From: Gemmatimonadota bacterium
Lineage (GTDB): Bacteria > Gemmatimonadota > Gemmatimonadetes > Gemmatimonadales > Gemmatimonadaceae
Assembly (NCBI GenBank): GCA_028287305.1
Contig: JAQBPX010000029.1
Span: 62,001 to 126,000 of the forward strand
Length of the DNA: 64,000 nt
Direction: 5' to 3'
A program made the translations under genes and the position numbers. Numbering within the stretch: position 1 is the stretch's first letter; every line of letters begins with the position of its first letter. The notes beneath the pieces are model-generated. The model searched no databases. It was not told where the DNA came from and was given only the letters and a program-made list of their open reading frames with translations. Positions 56,805 to 63,301 of the stretch are shown here, piece by piece.

Positions 56805-56874
56805 GCTTCACCAGGCTGAAGGGAGCTCGTCAATACTATCGCAACAGGGCACCCCGAATCCATATACTGAAGGA

Positions 56875-57525
56875 ATGCCCACCGCCCTGCTCTTCGACCT
56901 CGACGGCACGCTGATCGACTCGATCACCCTGATCGTGGAGTCCGCCCGCCACGCCTTCAGCTCCCGGGGCTGCGTCGCCCCGAGTGACGCCGAGTGGGTC
57001 GCCGGGGTCGGGATGCCGCTCCGCACCATGTTCGAGCTGCACGCGCCGAGCCTCGACCGCGTGGACGACCTGATCGCCGGCTACCGCGAGTACCAGCTGG
57101 AACACCACGATCGGCTCGTGACGCCCTACGCCACGGTGGTGGACACGCTCTCCCTGCTCCATTCCCGCGGGCACGCAATCGCGGTCGTCACCTCCAAGGC
57201 CGACTGGCTGGCACTCCGCGGACTCGAGCACGTAGGGCTGAAAGGCGTGGTGGACCTGATCGTCGGCTGCGACTCCACCACGCGCCACAAGCCGGACCCG
57301 GAACCGGTGCTCCACGCCCTGGAAAAGCTCGGGCGCGAGCCGCACGAAGCGCTCTTCGTGGGAGACTCACCCTACGACATCCAGGCCGGCAACGCCGCCG
57401 GCGTCACCTCGGTCGCCGCCCTCTGGGGCCCCTTCACCCGGGAACAGCTGGAAAGCTCGGAACCGGATTTCTGGCTGGATGAGATGGCCCAGCTGCCAGC
57501 GCTGGTAGATGGCCTAAGTCGTTGA
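56875..57525 (+). CDS. HAD-superfamily phosphatase (phosphoglycolate phosphatase-like)
   Basis: The 216-residue protein has the HAD motifs: nucleophile in LLFDLDGTLIDS, motif II VVTSK, motif III lysine RHKPDPEP, and motif IV VGDSPYDIQAG. A helical cap sits at about 17-85. It probably dephosphorylates phosphoglycolate or a related small ester. A TATACT box lies only 6 bases upstream, so the leader is very short. Confidence 0.92.
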   Translation: MPTALLFDLDGTLIDSITLIVESARHAFSSRGCVAPSDAEWVAGVGMPLRTMFELHAPSLDRVDDLIAGYREYQLEHHDRLVTPYATVVDTLSLLHSRGHAIAVVTSKADWLALRGLEHVGLKGVVDLIVGCDSTTRHKPDPEPVLHALEKLGREPHEALFVGDSPYDIQAGNAAGVTSVAALWGPFTREQLESSEPDFWLDEMAQLPALVDGLSR

Positions 57526-57682
57526 CCTGACGAGTGATGCAGTGGTGCAGTGGTGAGATGATGCAGAAGGGCGGAGGCAGTTGCCAAAGCCCAGGTCCCA
57601 AAGCCCAAAGCCCGCAGTTTCAAACCTTCTGCTCCCAGCAGGTATCTGTTCCCATGCAGGGAACGCTGATCCCCCGGAGCAC
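57526..57682. repeat. Repetitive intergenic DNA before the sigma factor gene
   Basis: Words such as GATGCAG, TGGTGCAG, AAAGCCC and CCCAAAGCCC are repeated. The start (GTGATGCAGTG) matches the hairpin arm at 5531-5541. No gene is seen; a ribosome site (CCGGAGC) precedes ATG 57683. Confidence 0.5.
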
Positions 57683-58264
57683 ATGTCCGCAGTGGCGCTG
57701 ATCGAAACGACGCCTTCCTCCCCGATGCACGATGCCGATTCCGACGTGGCCATGGCCGCGCGCGGTGACCGGCGGGCGTTCGAACGGCTCTACCGCACGC
57801 ACGTATCCCGGATCTTCACGCTCTGCGCTCGCATGACCGCCGATCGCACGCGCGCCGAAGAGCTCACGCAGGACGTCTTCGTTCGCGCCTGGGAAAAGCT
57901 GCACCTCTTCCGCGGCGAAAGCTCCTTCGCCACCTGGCTGCATCGCATGGCCGTGAACGTGGTGCTGAACGAGCGGAAGTCCGACGGGCGACGCAAGTCG
58001 CGCTTCGAGGAAGAGACGGACGAGGGAATGGACGTACACGCCGACGCGGGACCTTCGCTTCGACCGATGGCGCCGGGAGACATGCTGGACCTCGAGGCAG
58101 CGATCGCGAAGCTGCCGCCGGGAGCACGGCGCGTATTCACGATGCACGACGTGGAAGGCTACAAGCACGAGGAGATCGCCGGCATGCTCGGCGTCACCAC
58201 CGGAGCCACCAAGGCCCAGCTGCACCGGGCCCGCATGCTGTTGAGGGAGGCACTGAACCGATGA
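57683..58264 (+). CDS. ECF RNA polymerase sigma factor
   Basis: The 193-residue sigma factor has region 2 (about 25-90; GDRRAFERLYRTHVSRIFTL, AEELTQDVFVRAWEKL) and region 4 (about 140-190; LPPGARRVFTMHDVEGYKHE and GVTTGATKAQLHRAR). It overlaps the anti-sigma gene (ATGA) and heads an operon with four secreted repeat proteins, so an envelope signal is the likely trigger. Confidence 0.94.
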   Translation: MSAVALIETTPSSPMHDADSDVAMAARGDRRAFERLYRTHVSRIFTLCARMTADRTRAEELTQDVFVRAWEKLHLFRGESSFATWLHRMAVNVVLNERKSDGRRKSRFEEETDEGMDVHADAGPSLRPMAPGDMLDLEAAIAKLPPGARRVFTMHDVEGYKHEEIAGMLGVTTGATKAQLHRARMLLREALNR

Positions 58265-59085
58265 GCGACATGCACCGCGACATGCACCAGGTCACCTGCA
58301 GCGAATTCTCCGAGCAGCTCTCGGCCCACCTCGAGCTCGAGCTCGACGCGGCCGCCGCTGCCGGCATGGACGCACACGCCGCGACCTGCGCCGAGTGCGG
58401 CGCGCTGCTCGCCGACCTCCGCGCGCTGCAGGCTCACGCCTCGGCGCTCCCGCTGCTCACGCCCTCGCACGACCTCTGGAACGGCATCGCCAGCCGCATC
58501 GACGCAGCCGTGGTTCCGCTCGACACGCGACGCCAGTCAGCGATGACTGCCCCGCGCCGCAGCAGCTGGCAGCTGGCGGCCGTTGCCGCCGGACTCATGG
58601 CCGTTACGTCGGCGCTCACGTGGATGGCGGCCTCGCGCCGCGCGCCCGCCGTGGCCGTCGTGGCCGTGTCGCCAGGCGCCACCCGCCCTGCCGTTCCTGA
58701 AGCAGTCACGACCACCGCTCCGGCGCCGGAGCCCGTGATCACCCCGGCACCGACCGAGCGCCGCGAGGCGCTTCGCTCCTCGCCGGCTCCCACCGCGAAC
58801 GTGTACCTCGCCAGCGCGGTAAAGCACGCCGCCGCGGAGGCGGTGTACGACCGCGAGATCCGCACGCTGCGCAGGATCATCGAGACGCGCCGCAACCAGA
58901 TCGACCCGGTGACGCTCGCCATCATCGAGAAGAACCTGTCCGTGATCGACACGGCGATCGCCGAGTGCAAGCTCGCCCTGGCGCGCGACCCGGCCAGCCG
59001 CTTCCTCGTCGAGACGCTCAACTCATCGCTCAACAACAAGGTGGAGCTGCTGCGCAGCGCGGCGATGTTGCCGACGCGCAGCTGA
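58261..59085 (+). CDS. Zinc-finger anti-sigma factor, membrane-bound
   Basis: The 274-residue protein has the ZAS motif HxxxCxxC in MDAHAATCAECGALL (about 36-50), one TM helix (LAAVAAGLMAVTSALTWM, about 105) and a Pro/Ala linker. A helical periplasmic end follows (TLRRIIETRRNQIDPVTLAI, EKNLSVIDTAIAECKLALAR). It should bind and block the ECF sigma factor until a signal frees it. Confidence 0.9.
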   Translation: MSDMHRDMHQVTCSEFSEQLSAHLELELDAAAAAGMDAHAATCAECGALLADLRALQAHASALPLLTPSHDLWNGIASRIDAAVVPLDTRRQSAMTAPRRSSWQLAAVAAGLMAVTSALTWMAASRRAPAVAVVAVSPGATRPAVPEAVTTTAPAPEPVITPAPTERREALRSSPAPTANVYLASAVKHAAAEAVYDREIRTLRRIIETRRNQIDPVTLAIIEKNLSVIDTAIAECKLALARDPASRFLVETLNSSLNNKVELLRSAAMLPTRS

Positions 59086-59090
59086 CTTAT

Positions 59091-60095
59091 ATGACCAACC
59101 GACACTATTTCCTCCTCGCCGTCGCGCTCGGCGCGCTCACGGCCCCGGCCGCCGACGCGCAGTCGAGCAGCAGCAACAGCAGCAGCAGCAGCAGCACGCG
59201 CACGCGCAGCTCCTCGTCCTCGTCCAGCTATTCCCGCAGCGACGACGAGGATTACGTGGCCGCGCTCGACACCACCGTCAAGTTCGACCGCAAGGGCACC
59301 GTGTCGCTCAACATCCCGCGCGGTGACGTGATCATCCGCTCATGGGGGCGCGACGAGGTGCGGGTCCATGCGCGCAGCGACCAGGGCGCGATCAAGTTCG
59401 ACGTCTCCTCCAGCCGCATCACGGTCGATGGCTATGGCGCACGCAACCACGGCGAGACCGACGTGGAGGTCACCGTGCCAGAGGGCGTGTCGATCATCGC
59501 GCGGACGCAGAGCGGCGACCTCACTGTTCGCGACACGCGCGGCGCGGTGGAGGCCCATGCGCAGAATGGCGACGTGGTGGTGAGCGGCGTGCGCGGCCGG
59601 CTCGACGTCTCGACCTTCAGCGGCGACGTGCACGTGGACGACGTGGAGGGCGACATCGAGCTCTCCGCGCTCTCGGGTGACGCGCACATCAGCAGCGCGA
59701 AGGGCGACATCGACGTGAAGACGGTGAGCGGTGACATCACCATGGAAGGGATCACCGCCAAGAACGTCCACGCGCAGACCACCAGTGGCGACGTGGAGTA
59801 CGACGGCACCATCGACGCGCAGGGGCGCTACGAGCTCGTCTCCCACTCGGGCGACGTCAGCTTCAGCGTGCCCAAGGGCTCCGGCGCGCAGATCTCGGTG
59901 TCGACCTGGAGCGGGGACATCGAGAGCGACTTTCCGATCACCCTCAAGCCGGGTGAGCACGGCTTCGGCGGCAGCAGCGGGCGCAAGATCACCTTCGAGG
60001 TTGGCAACGGCAGTGCACGCATCATCGCCGAGTCGTTCAGCGGCGACATCACCATTCGCGATCGCGGCACGAGCCGCGGGAGAACCGACCGATGA
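59091..60095 (+). CDS. DUF4097 secreted beta-repeat protein, SGD type (copy 1)
   Basis: The 334-residue protein has a signal peptide (LLAVALGALTAPAADAQ), a Ser-rich linker (about 24-52) and repeated beta units built on SGD (VSGVRGRLDVSTFSGDVHVD, IELSALSGDAHISSAKGDID, VKTVSGDITME). This is the DUF4097 adhesin-like pattern, which folds as a right-handed beta solenoid. It is first of four copies in the operon. Confidence 0.87.
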   Translation: MTNRHYFLLAVALGALTAPAADAQSSSSNSSSSSSTRTRSSSSSSSYSRSDDEDYVAALDTTVKFDRKGTVSLNIPRGDVIIRSWGRDEVRVHARSDQGAIKFDVSSSRITVDGYGARNHGETDVEVTVPEGVSIIARTQSGDLTVRDTRGAVEAHAQNGDVVVSGVRGRLDVSTFSGDVHVDDVEGDIELSALSGDAHISSAKGDIDVKTVSGDITMEGITAKNVHAQTTSGDVEYDGTIDAQGRYELVSHSGDVSFSVPKGSGAQISVSTWSGDIESDFPITLKPGEHGFGGSSGRKITFEVGNGSARIIAESFSGDITIRDRGTSRGRTDR

Positions 60096-60928
60096 TCCGC
60101 ATTCGCCAGCACACGATGGGCGTGCTCGCCCTCCTCGCCGCCTCCGCGCTCACCGCGCCCGCGGCCTCGGCCCAGAACGGGCGCCACACCGGCACCCCTG
60201 ACTTCACCTGGTCCGGCGCGCTCGCCAGCGGCAAGTCGGTGCGCCTCCGCAACCTCAGCGGCGACGTGAACGTCAGCGTCGGCACCGGCGACAAGGCCGA
60301 GATCACCGGCTGGATCCCGCGCGGCGACCGCAACCGCGACGAGGTCACCATCGAGGTGCACCAGCTTTCTGGTGGGGGCCTGATCGCCTGCGTGGTGTAC
60401 AAGGACATGGACAGCAGGTGCGATGACGACGGCTACCACGTCAGCAGCCACAACGACGATCGCTGGGGCCGCCACGACCACCCGAGCATGGACATGGAAG
60501 TGAGGCTGCCGCGCGGCACGATCGTGGACGCCAGCTCGGTGAGCGGCGACCTGGTGATCATCGGGGCGGAGGGCGACGTCCGCGGCACCAGCGTGAGCGG
60601 CGACGTGCGCCTCGAGGGACTGCACGCCACGAGCGTCGAAGCGCGCTCCGTGAGCGGCGACGTGAAGGTGGAGGTGCTCTCGCTCGCCGATGGGCGCGGC
60701 GACCTGACCTTCAAGTCGGTGAGCGGCGACATCGAGGTCTCGCTTCCGCGTGACCTGAACGCGAACGTGACGATGAAGACCGTGAGCGGGGACTTCAACT
60801 CCGACTTTCCGCTCACGCTGGATGGACGCATGAATCGCCGTTCCATCGAGGGTCGCGTGGGCAAGGGTGGACGCGAGCTCGAGCTGACGACCGTCAGCGG
60901 CGACGTGAAGCTCCGGATGACCAGGTGA
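60092..60928 (+). CDS. DUF4097 secreted beta-repeat protein, SGD type (copy 2)
   Basis: The 278-residue protein has a signal peptide ending ASAQ and SGD units (DASSVSGDLVIIGAEGDVRG, TSVSGDVRLEGLHATSV, RSVSGDVKVEVLSLADG). Two Cys (IACVVYKDMDSRCDDDG) may pair. It shares the FTWSGALASGKSVRL start with copy 3. ATGA couples it to copy 1. Confidence 0.87.
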   Translation: MIRIRQHTMGVLALLAASALTAPAASAQNGRHTGTPDFTWSGALASGKSVRLRNLSGDVNVSVGTGDKAEITGWIPRGDRNRDEVTIEVHQLSGGGLIACVVYKDMDSRCDDDGYHVSSHNDDRWGRHDHPSMDMEVRLPRGTIVDASSVSGDLVIIGAEGDVRGTSVSGDVRLEGLHATSVEARSVSGDVKVEVLSLADGRGDLTFKSVSGDIEVSLPRDLNANVTMKTVSGDFNSDFPLTLDGRMNRRSIEGRVGKGGRELELTTVSGDVKLRMTR

Positions 60929-61767
60929 AGACGGCCATGACCATGACCTCGTTCCGCTATATCCCGCTGGTCGTCGCGCTCGCGACGGCCCCAGCACTCG
61001 CCCAGGGTTCCGGCAGCAATGCCACCGTGGCCTCCGGCACCGCGAAGGACTTCAGCTGGTCGGGCAAGCTCGCCGACGGCGCCTGGATCACCGTGCACGA
61101 CATCAACGGCACCGTGCAGGTGATGCCCGGCACGAGCGACAAGGTGGAGGTCACCGCCACCAAGCGCTCGCGCCGCGGCGACGAGGACCGCGTTCGCATC
61201 GAGGTGGTGCGCACCGGCAAGGGCGACGCCGACGTCGTGATCTGCGCGCTCTGGACCGAGCGCGCGACCTGTGACGACGAGGGCATCCACCAGAACAACA
61301 GCCGCGGCTCGTACAACGAGCGCAACGACACGCAGGTGGACTTCAAGGTGTACGTGCCGAAGAACGTGAAGGTCGGCGCGCATTCCGTGAACGGTCGCGT
61401 GGGCGTTGAGGGTGCCGGCCTCGAGGTGGATGCGTCGTCGGTGAACGGCTCGGTGGAAGTGACCACCGAGGGCGGGCCCGTGTCGGCCACCACGGTGAAT
61501 GGCTCGGTGACCGCGCGCATGGGCCACTTCACGCCGAAGAACGACATGGAGTTCACCACCGTGAACGGCACCGTGATCGCCGAGTTCGCGGACGACATCG
61601 ATGCGAACATCGAGCTCGAGACCGTGAACGGGCACTTCGCCACGTCGTTTCCCGTGACGCTCTCCGGCAAGATCAACCCGCGCCACCTGAAGGCCACGCT
61701 CGGCAAGGGCGGCCCCAGGCTCAAGCTGACCACCGTGAACGGGAACGTGGAGCTGCGAAAGCGCTAG
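60925..61767 (+). CDS. DUF4097 secreted beta-repeat protein, NG type (copy 3)
   Basis: The 280-residue protein has a signal peptide ending ALAQ, the shared FSWSGKLADGAWITVHDING start, and repeats built on VNG instead of SGD (HSVNGRVGVEGAGLE, SSVNGSVEVTTEGG, TTVNGTVIAEFADDI, ETVNGHFATSF). Cys pair in VVICALWTERATC. GTG 60925 overlaps the copy 2 stop. Confidence 0.87.
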   Translation: MKTAMTMTSFRYIPLVVALATAPALAQGSGSNATVASGTAKDFSWSGKLADGAWITVHDINGTVQVMPGTSDKVEVTATKRSRRGDEDRVRIEVVRTGKGDADVVICALWTERATCDDEGIHQNNSRGSYNERNDTQVDFKVYVPKNVKVGAHSVNGRVGVEGAGLEVDASSVNGSVEVTTEGGPVSATTVNGSVTARMGHFTPKNDMEFTTVNGTVIAEFADDIDANIELETVNGHFATSFPVTLSGKINPRHLKATLGKGGPRLKLTTVNGNVELRKR

Positions 61768-61799
61768 GCGAAACTCCGCCGGTCGCGGGCTCGTCGTGA

Positions 61800-61833
61800 G
61801 GGGGGAGGCGCCATCACGGCGCCTCCCCCCTTT
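61800..61833 (+). terminator. Strong intrinsic terminator inside the DUF4097 cluster
   Basis: GGGGGAGGCGCC pairs perfectly with GGCGCCTCCCCC around ATCAC and is followed by CTTT. It sits between copies 3 and 4, so copy 4 is expressed less or separately. Confidence 0.8.
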
Positions 61834-61846
61834 CCGCCGAGGCACC

Positions 61847-62533
61847 ATGCGTCGCCCCTCGATTCGCTGGATCGCGCCCCTGTTGCTGCTGCCGGCGCTG
61901 ATCGCCTGCAGCCGGGAGCGGCGCAACGACGACGCGTGGTCGGCCAGCCAGCCGCTGGCCGCCGGCACGCGACTGCACGTGCGCAACCTGAATGGCGACG
62001 TGCGGCTGGTGTCCGGCACGAGCTTCCGCGCGCGCGGCGGCACCGTGTGGCATCATCGCGGCGACGCGCAGGTGCAGTTCCAGGTGGTGCGCTCGGGGAA
62101 CGACGTCTACGTCTGCGCGCTCTGGTCGAGGAATGGGAGCTGCGGACCGAACTACCAGCCGAACTATCGCGGCCGCCACTCGTTCCTCGGGCTGGCGACC
62201 TGGGGGAGCGATGCGCGCGCCAGCATCGACGTCGTCGTGCCCCCGGGCGTGGACGTCGACGCCAGCACCGTGAATGGCGACCTGGTGGTGAGCGGCGTGG
62301 ACGCCGGGCTCGAAGCCGGCACCGTGAACGGCAGCGTGCGCGCCACCATTCCCGGAACCTTTGCCGGCAGCGTGGAGCTGAACACCGTGAACGGCTCGGC
62401 CACCACCGACTTCCCCCTGGTGGCAAGCTCCGTGGGATCCGACAAGCGGCACCTGGCGGGCACGATCGGCACCGGCACGGGGCGCGTGCTCATGAAGACC
62501 GTGAACGGGTCGGTCTCGCTCCGGAAGGGGTGA
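61847..62533 (+). CDS. DUF4097 lipoprotein, NG type (copy 4)
   Basis: The 228-residue protein has a lipoprotein signal (IAPLLLLPALIACSRE) and NG units (LHVRNLNGDVRLVSGTS, STVNGDLVVSGVDAG, EAGTVNGSVRATIPG, NTVNGSATTDFPLVA). The Cys pair VYVCALWSRNGSCG is at the same place as in copies 2 and 3. Lipidation makes it the membrane-tethered member. Confidence 0.86.
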   Translation: MRRPSIRWIAPLLLLPALIACSRERRNDDAWSASQPLAAGTRLHVRNLNGDVRLVSGTSFRARGGTVWHHRGDAQVQFQVVRSGNDVYVCALWSRNGSCGPNYQPNYRGRHSFLGLATWGSDARASIDVVVPPGVDVDASTVNGDLVVSGVDAGLEAGTVNGSVRATIPGTFAGSVELNTVNGSATTDFPLVASSVGSDKRHLAGTIGTGTGRVLMKTVNGSVSLRKG

Positions 62534-62626: not shown

Positions 62627-63301
62627 ATGGGCATGTCCTATTCTCTGCCGGTCCTCACCGGAGCCGATCGCGCGACGCTCGTGCGCCGCACCTATGGCCT
62701 GGTGTTCGTGGGCGTCCTCACGACCATCGCCGGCGCCGCCTTCGGCATGACGCAGCCAGCGCTGATGGATGCCGTGCGCGCGCATCCCTTCATCACGTTC
62801 ATCGCGATGATGGCGCCCCTGCTCATGGTGCGGACGGCGCCGCGCGTGTTCCCGCGGAACGTGCTGCTCACGCTGGTCTTCACGTTCATCGAGGGGGTCT
62901 GGATCTCTCCGCTGATCTCCATCTACGGCCGGCTGTATCCGGGCGTGGTGCCGCAGGCGGCGCTGCTCACGCTGTGCACGTTCGGCGCGCTCTCGCTGTT
63001 CGCGATGCTGAGCCGCCGCGACTTCAGCGCGTGGGGCAGCTTCTTCATGGTGGGCCTCTGGGTGCTGATCGCCACCTCGCTGATCAGCATGTTCTTCCCG
63101 AGCACGCTCGGCTCCCTCTGGATCGCGGGCGGCACGCTGCTCGTGTTCAGCGGGCTGCTGGTGTTCGACACCTGGCGCCTGGTGCGCTCCGGCCAGTTCG
63201 GTCCCGATGACTACGTGATCGCCGCGGTGCAGATCTACCTGGACCTGCTCAACATGTTCCTGGCGATCCTCAGCCTGCTCGGCGCCGGGCGGCGGCGCTG
63301 A
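62627..63301 (+). CDS. Bax inhibitor-1 / YccA family membrane protein
   Basis: The 224-residue protein has seven TM helices and BI-1 features: RRTYGLVFVGVLTTIAGAAF, VFTFIEGVWISPLISIY, FSGLLVFDTWRLVRSG and a final IAAVQIYLDLLNMFLAILSL with its Asp. Bacterial members affect calcium leak or membrane protease FtsH; role here unproven. A TAGAAT box (62591-62596) with weak -35 lies upstream. Confidence 0.88.
   Translation: MGMSYSLPVLTGADRATLVRRTYGLVFVGVLTTIAGAAFGMTQPALMDAVRAHPFITFIAMMAPLLMVRTAPRVFPRNVLLTLVFTFIEGVWISPLISIYGRLYPGVVPQAALLTLCTFGALSLFAMLSRRDFSAWGSFFMVGLWVLIATSLISMFFPSTLGSLWIAGGTLLVFSGLLVFDTWRLVRSGQFGPDDYVIAAVQIYLDLLNMFLAILSLLGAGRRR

Follow-up and report, generated by a model that had tools for sequence, protein, structure and literature searches.

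Introduction

The Toastrack, a right-handed beta-helix of which 4qrk is an example, was defined by Ravi et al. (2024; PMC11237479), who expected the domain to lie inside the cell and suggested a part for it in the assembly of sub-membrane signalling complexes. That account deals with the DUF4097, DUF2154 and DUF2807 Toastracks of phage-shock and Lia systems, places an operonic sigma factor in the context of DUF2089 and mentions some Alphaproteobacteria with multiple Toastracks; the string 'Gemmatimon' does not occur in its main text. Here we describe a gene cluster of a soil bacterium of the phylum Gemmatimonadota, on the + strand at 57619-62533 of a 64,000-nucleotide (nt) stretch (the window; positions 62,001 to 126,000 of contig JAQBPX010000029.1, assembly GCA_028287305.1). 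It consists of a promoter, an extracytoplasmic function (ECF) sigma factor gene, a membrane anti-sigma factor gene and four genes for exported DUF4097/Toastrack proteins, D1, D2, D3 and D4 in cluster order, and it is probably a self-adjusting alarm for envelope damage. We found no description of the operon, its promoter or its regulon among the listed titles and abstract openings of open-licence papers.

The proteins of this cluster are like the phage-shock and Lia Toastracks in fold, in Pfam family and in their link to an envelope-stress regulator (PMC11237479), but differ in having signal peptides, a cysteine pair in D2-D4, control by an ECF sigma/anti-sigma pair and a defined promoter. Among nine proteins scanned around the cluster, none was over cut-off for PspA, PspC or LiaF, so that neither of the two proteins that mark a phage-shock locus, PspA and PspC, was seen there. 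LiaX of Enterococcus offers a parallel in regulation, being a product of the regulator that it controls, with a C-terminal domain described as inhibitory (PMC11601895). However, LiaX is under LiaFSR and not an ECF sigma factor, and the similarity of D1-D4 to its profile is weak, far below the model cut-off (NCBIfam, 21.8 of 350 bits at best; for LiaG the best was 49.3 of 285).

RpoE/RseA-like class I systems share with this locus a zinc-finger membrane anti-sigma factor encoded beside the sigma gene and a promoter before the pair, whereas here the periplasmic domain has three helices, with no solved relative found, and the output is mostly one protein family. ECF systems with class I anti-sigma factors also have in common a promoter with an AAC-type -35 element. 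YvlB of Bacillus subtilis is a DUF4097 protein and, to our knowledge, has no signal peptide. Sigma-W controls yvlABCD (PMC3498285), and there, as probably here, an ECF sigma factor drives an operon with a Toastrack protein; that operon, however, is part of a larger sigma-W regulon and, as listed in that source, is without a sigma gene.

A conserved predicted operon behind an ECF-type promoter

Comparison with related genomes shows that the sigma factor, the membrane anti-sigma factor, D1 and mostly also D2 form one conserved, predicted operon behind an ECF-type promoter, that the same promoter precedes many single dispersed Toastrack genes, and that the anti-sigma factor and D1 occur or are missing jointly and are a single predicted protein in one genome. 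It is very probable, judging from these sequences, that the sigma factor regulates itself together with a Toastrack regulon; the fuller reading, in which an ECF sigma system controls itself and yields chiefly exported Toastracks, we hold to be probable. The parts of the cluster are as follows.

57619-57646, + strand: ECF-type promoter, TTCAAACC-N16-TATC, with the -35 element at 57619-57626 and the -10 element at 57643-57646
57683-58264, + strand: ECF sigma factor, 193 amino acids (aa) from ATG 57683, with ATG 57725 as an alternative start
58261-59085, + strand: membrane anti-sigma factor, with zf-HC2 at aa 13-46, a transmembrane helix at about 103-126, a proline-rich linker and a periplasmic three-helix domain at about 180-268
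59091-60095, + strand: D1, exported Toastrack, DUF4097 80.2 bits, in its own clade in the tree, mature part cysteine-free
60092-60928, + strand: D2, exported Toastrack with a conserved cysteine pair, DUF4097 73.5 bits
60925-61767, + strand: D3, exported Toastrack, starting at GTG 60925 or ATG 60937, 34% identical to D2
61799-61831, + strand: perfect 14-bp hairpin before the lipoprotein gene, folding z -4.4
61847-62533, + strand: D4, Toastrack lipoprotein from ATG 61847, DUF4097 28.0 bits, lipobox LIAC

A first, sequence-only reading of this DNA had placed a sigma factor, an anti-sigma factor and four exported DUF4097 genes in one + strand cluster, and the reading frames and Pfam confirm it. 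The sigma factor matches Sigma70_r2 (59.1 bits) and Sigma70_r4_2 (62.5 bits), both over cut-off, and TIGR02937 (90.3 bits against a cut-off of 42.9); with regions 2 and 4 and nothing more in its 193 aa, it has the make-up of an ECF factor. The sigma and anti-sigma genes overlap by 4 nt, and neighbours from sigma to D3 are separated throughout by a 4-nt overlap or a 5-nt spacing (taking D3 from GTG 60925). D1, D2 and D4 pass the DUF4097 (PF13349) cut-off; D3 has no DUF4097 match of its own in the Pfam scan and aligns with residues 11-276 of D2 at 34% identity.

The genome of the window (G000) was searched along with 58 relatives from the same family and order. DUF4097 is present in 58 of these 59 genomes and a full or partial anti-sigma match in 52, and 62 loci were fetched from 58 of them. 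Sigma factor, anti-sigma factor and at least one D gene occur together in 53 of the 62 loci, each from a different genome (53 of 59), and in all 53 the first D gene after the anti-sigma gene is D1. Eight of these complete loci have one D gene, 27 have two, 16 three and two four (at least two in 45, at least three in 18, four in that of the window and in G013), the higher counts being lower bounds as some contigs end within the cluster; four D genes are found also in the named records L096 and L097. Before the respective analyses, a second sigma factor on L064 was removed from the promoter scoring and the truncated L078 from the anti-sigma alignment. In a phylum sample of 249 genomes, counted by hand at E 1e-25 or better, the anti-sigma profile matches 71 of 87 genomes in the family, 54 of 58 in the rest of the order, 46 of 98 in the rest of the class and none of six in other classes. 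Because it recurs across the order, the linkage of sigma factor, anti-sigma factor and DUF4097 is far beyond chance, and the earlier proposal that the neighbourhood be checked for conservation in Gemmatimonadota is thus answered in the affirmative. One record with the label Acidobacteriota (L116) and one with the label Latescibacterota (L119) likewise hold a sigma factor, an anti-sigma factor and a D1 or D1-like gene, which may reflect misbinning of metagenome-assembled genomes.

The genes on either side recur as well. A HAD-family hydrolase gene lies upstream of sigma on the same strand (56830-57525) and is at most 400 nt from sigma in 15 of 54 loci, while a gene of the Bax inhibitor-1 family (Bax1-I, 62627-63301) lies directly behind the cluster, with a same-strand downstream homologue in 18 of 54 loci, the window's own locus being included in both counts. 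With HAD upstream and Bax1-I downstream in relatives, the loci are positional orthologues.

The consensus 5' of the sigma genes is TTC(A/C)AACC-N16-(T/C/G)(A/G)TC (in short, TTCMAACC-N16-YRTC) with a fixed 16-nt spacing; outside the family, the -35 element varies. An AAC core is usual for ECF -35 elements, and the promoter of the window has it. The strict seed alone finds 34 of 54 sigma upstream regions and the refined matrix 53, the 54th (L051, 23.6 bits) being added after correction of the sigma start; as the matrix was fitted to those regions, the count of 53 is not a test of it. Of the named loci scored, 22 of 23 have the promoter, or 20 of 21 once L098 and L104 are removed because they are the same DNA as the training loci L051 and L038; the exception is L119, where no site of at least 14 bits was found. 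The promoter of the window, at 26.6 bits by the matrix, is one that the sigma factor would read at its own operon.

Dispersed Toastrack genes

The matrix was then applied to both strands of 69 secondary DUF4097 loci, 638,034 nt in all. It finds 35 sites, 33 of which lie at most 700 nt upstream of the start of the DUF4097 match and on the same strand, so that 33 of the 69 loci are covered; this upstream zone makes up 7.8% of the sequence (binomial p 1.4e-34). The remaining two sites are one in L178, 2 nt inside the match start, and one in L210, which is unexplained. Sixty column-permuted matrices give a mean of 0.58 sites and a maximum of two, and the reversed matrix gives one site, itself close to a DUF4097 gene. 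With a conserved promoter before sigma and before dispersed DUF4097 genes, the suggested link between the ECF pair and exported DUF4097 proteins is supported.

The genome of the window itself contains three sites at up to two mismatches: that of the operon, one on contig C24 (79929-79957) that ends 32 nt 5' of the ATG of the genome's other DUF4097 gene, and one on C21 whose -10 element is damaged. Outside the operon, the matrix scores 23.7 bits on C24, 9.5 on C21 and below 8 on C4, so that C24 is the sole near-match above 10 bits; the C4 site is one of two exact matches, with the operon, to TTCAAACC N17 RTC in the 4.37-Mb genome. Across genomes, an exact pattern finds 55 sites in 37 genomes against six for its reversed control (our own count), and a strict pattern, which misses the promoter of the window, finds 60 in 59 genomes. 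When 26 loci with pattern sites were scored by the matrix, 19 were above threshold and the other seven, C4 and C21 among them, were at 12 bits or less.

These numbers bear on the possibility that the sigma factor is a broad envelope-stress factor, with the Toastracks a minor if conspicuous share of a large regulon. Such a regulon would be in keeping with the strict-pattern sites that precede other exported proteins, and the matrix test was confined to the surroundings of DUF4097 genes. It is nevertheless improbable, since the strict pattern yields only 0-5 sites per genome, with three in total for its reversed control, and since two of the three two-mismatch sites in the window's genome stand before Toastrack genes. 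The recognisable output of the promoter thus appears to be mainly, not exclusively, Toastracks.

Short repeats of the AAAGCCC type occur just 5' of the operon (57584-57613) and just behind the C24 DUF4097 gene (L094, 5848-5879), and are perhaps an interspersed repeat of this genome. Five relatives carry second, diverged ECF sigma/anti-sigma/Toastrack modules (L182, L186, L193, L198, L203), as if such modules were duplicated whole.

The anti-sigma factor and D1

The anti-sigma factor passes the Pfam cut-off for zf-HC2 (24.2 against 22.2 bits), and its HxxxCxxC zf-HC2 domain and transmembrane helix (103-126) are those of a zinc-finger anti-sigma factor of class I. H39, C43 and C46 are invariant in ten of ten close relatives; across the wider set of 53 anti-sigma factors, the zinc finger falls short of 90% conservation. 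An AlphaFold2 model (mean predicted local distance difference test score, pLDDT, 79.7; predicted template-modelling score 0.42) has an N-terminal helical domain, the membrane helix at 103-126, a low-confidence linker and a confident C-terminal domain of three helices (180-209, 216-242 and 247-268). Compared with the sequences of solved structures, the C-terminal domain gave two chance-level matches only.

When the anti-sigma C-terminal domain served as the sole query, 31 named loci were retrieved; D1 is present in 29, and in the other two (L114, L126) the contig ends at most about 220 nt after the anti-sigma gene. Of the 71 family genomes whose anti-sigma match reaches E 1e-25 or better, 70 also match a query made of the D1-bearing fusion, with E 1e-20 or better (G235, at 4.7e-13, is the exception), and none of the 16 without a strong anti-sigma match does so (best G003, 3.0e-14). 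These were counted by hand over related genomes that are not independent of one another; G066 and G088 were scored as D1-negative since neither appears in the list of matches.

The fusion comes from G007, where sigma is followed by a single 425-aa frame made up of the conserved DLWPGIAARI segment of the anti-sigma factor, the membrane helix, the linker and the D1 Toastrack, which replaces the three-helix domain. The D1 fold would therefore lie on the periplasmic side of the inner membrane, beside the anti-sigma factor. No second fusion was found among the matches listed for 179 family genomes. Only G186 (from residue 36) extends before the membrane helix of the fusion among those matches, and in G186, G311, G104 and G271, as in L097, two separate frames encode the anti-sigma factor and D1; the G266 match reaches back to residue 102 and stops inside that helix.

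Co-occurrence, adjacency and fusion together suggest that D1 is physically tied to the anti-sigma factor, and we lean towards direct contact between Toastrack and anti-sigma factor. This tie, for D1 at least, is what speaks against regarding the Toastracks as effectors only, made by sigma on demand and bracing or shielding the membrane or wall from the periplasm without touching the anti-sigma factor. Effectors are the typical content of ECF regulons, and the dispersed single Toastrack genes that bear the promoter have no adjacent anti-sigma gene, both of which would suit a purely protective role; all in all we think such a role rather unlikely. The fusion also speaks against the idea, raised in the sequence-only reading, that these proteins serve as adhesins or coat the surface, as it places the D1 fold at the inner membrane, on its periplasmic face. 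The proteins are exported, the D4 lipoprotein could reach the outer membrane, and several solved relatives are titled putative adhesins, as in older database names. These titles, however, are names without a test behind them, each protein has one small domain, and Pfam finds no surface-sorting or further domain, so that we consider an adhesin or coat very improbable. Signalling is the favoured one among the three roles (adhesin, stress coat, signalling ligand) originally suggested.

Toastrack lineages and fold

The D proteins have N-terminal signal sequences that are plain both on inspection and from a simple hydrophobicity score, bearing out the claim that all four have signal peptides, and the lipobox LIAC agrees with the last copy being a lipoprotein. 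The mature part of D1 has no cysteine and those of D2, D3 and D4 have two each. Cys100 and Cys110 (D2 numbering) are invariant in 59 of 59 aligned proteins (of 66 D2-like or later copies, seven were dropped beforehand), and this predicted pair supports export.

An AlphaFold2 model of D2, in line with the structure prediction that had been proposed for the four proteins, is beta-rich (mean pLDDT 89.7). Its nearest solved structure is 4qrk (Z 13.8, root-mean-square deviation 3.4, 198 aligned), so the model has the Toastrack beta-helix fold as in 4QRK; a D2 profile finds no match among the sequences of solved structures.

A maximum-likelihood tree of 75 proteins sets D1 apart in a clade of its own (100/100). 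D2 of the window is an extra type that groups with the second copies of G001, G034, G013 and G019 (100/99), and its D3 falls with the G012 D2 and with the third copies from these same four genomes (99/99). The clade that holds D4 (96/89) has 12 rows, all but one of which carry a lipobox; this lipoprotein grouping is read from the drawn clade, the lipoprotein tags of L065 and L082 being false and the 'lipo' statistic comparing with D1 only. Every D type has relatives in other genera. As D1-D4 fall in separate clades they are a set of distinct old types, and the tree rejects a recent tandem duplication of four copies. The supposed local expansion to four is accordingly not supported: these are old lineages, and, as far as the contigs reach, two of the 53 complete loci have four D genes.

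The gap between D3 and D4 is 79 nt and contains the perfect 14-bp hairpin, which had been described as a strong internal terminator. The hairpin stands up to analysis (z -4.4); the terminator is not secure, as only three T follow the stem and the structure is absent from the output of the terminator scan, and a canonical intrinsic terminator before D4 is not supported. Among ten gaps before lipoprotein copies, z is -1.9 or lower in the window's own and four others and higher in five, compared with one of 15 gaps before other copies (L035, -2.0), relative to shuffles that preserve single-base composition only. A strong hairpin before the lipoprotein copy is thus seen in part of the loci only.

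Discussion

In the circuit that we propose, the anti-sigma factor would keep the sigma factor at the inner membrane in unstressed cells. Envelope damage, which we take to be the signal, would be sensed by the periplasmic three-helix domain of the anti-sigma factor together with the periplasmic Toastracks, and the sigma factor, once released, would make more sigma factor, anti-sigma factor and Toastracks. The most likely next step is that the Toastracks would bind the periplasmic domain of the anti-sigma factor and shut the system down as soon as the envelope is intact again. The negative sign of this feedback is put forward with some reserve and is borrowed from LiaX, for whose C-terminal domain inhibition has been described (PMC11601895). 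D4, as a lipoprotein, would be anchored on a membrane and, because of the hairpin, probably made in lower amount. It is tempting to speculate that the exported Toastracks are the periplasmic half of a sigma 'thermostat', at once what the sigma factor chiefly makes and the ligand by which its anti-sigma factor is set, with free Toastrack reporting the state of the envelope and the G007 fusion being a shortcut of the circuit, and we offer this as a tentative model.

Several observations weigh against this picture of an autoregulated system with a Toastrack output. At the threshold used, 36 of the 69 secondary DUF4097 loci have no upstream site, and therefore many Toastracks may lie outside the regulon; G003 has Toastracks and no anti-sigma match. 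Good sites also stand before a serine-hydrolase-like protein, a large membrane protein and another ECF factor, and in two genomes before large exported proteins that we take to be DUF5916-like (L266 and L234 in G001, L251 in G019), and paralogous ECF systems such as those of the second modules could read a similar motif. For the contact with the anti-sigma factor, the fusion is known from one genome, itself 82% complete, and Foldseek finds no solved relative for the periplasmic domain (best E 1.3 for the anti-sigma model). As for the original interpretation as a whole, a conserved sigma-linked system has held, while the expansion to four and the adhesin or coat have not.

DUF4097 is a common family whose function is unsettled, and a sigma factor with a promoter recognisable in the sequence itself, and with recognisable targets that are mostly DUF4097 genes, offers a direct route to its role. 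The Toastracks described here are predicted to be exported, contrary to the intracellular view set out by Ravi et al. (PMC11237479). The system is a possible marker of envelope stress for Gemmatimonadota and, if the thermostat model is true, it would give a widespread family of 'putative adhesins' a signalling role outside the cytoplasm.

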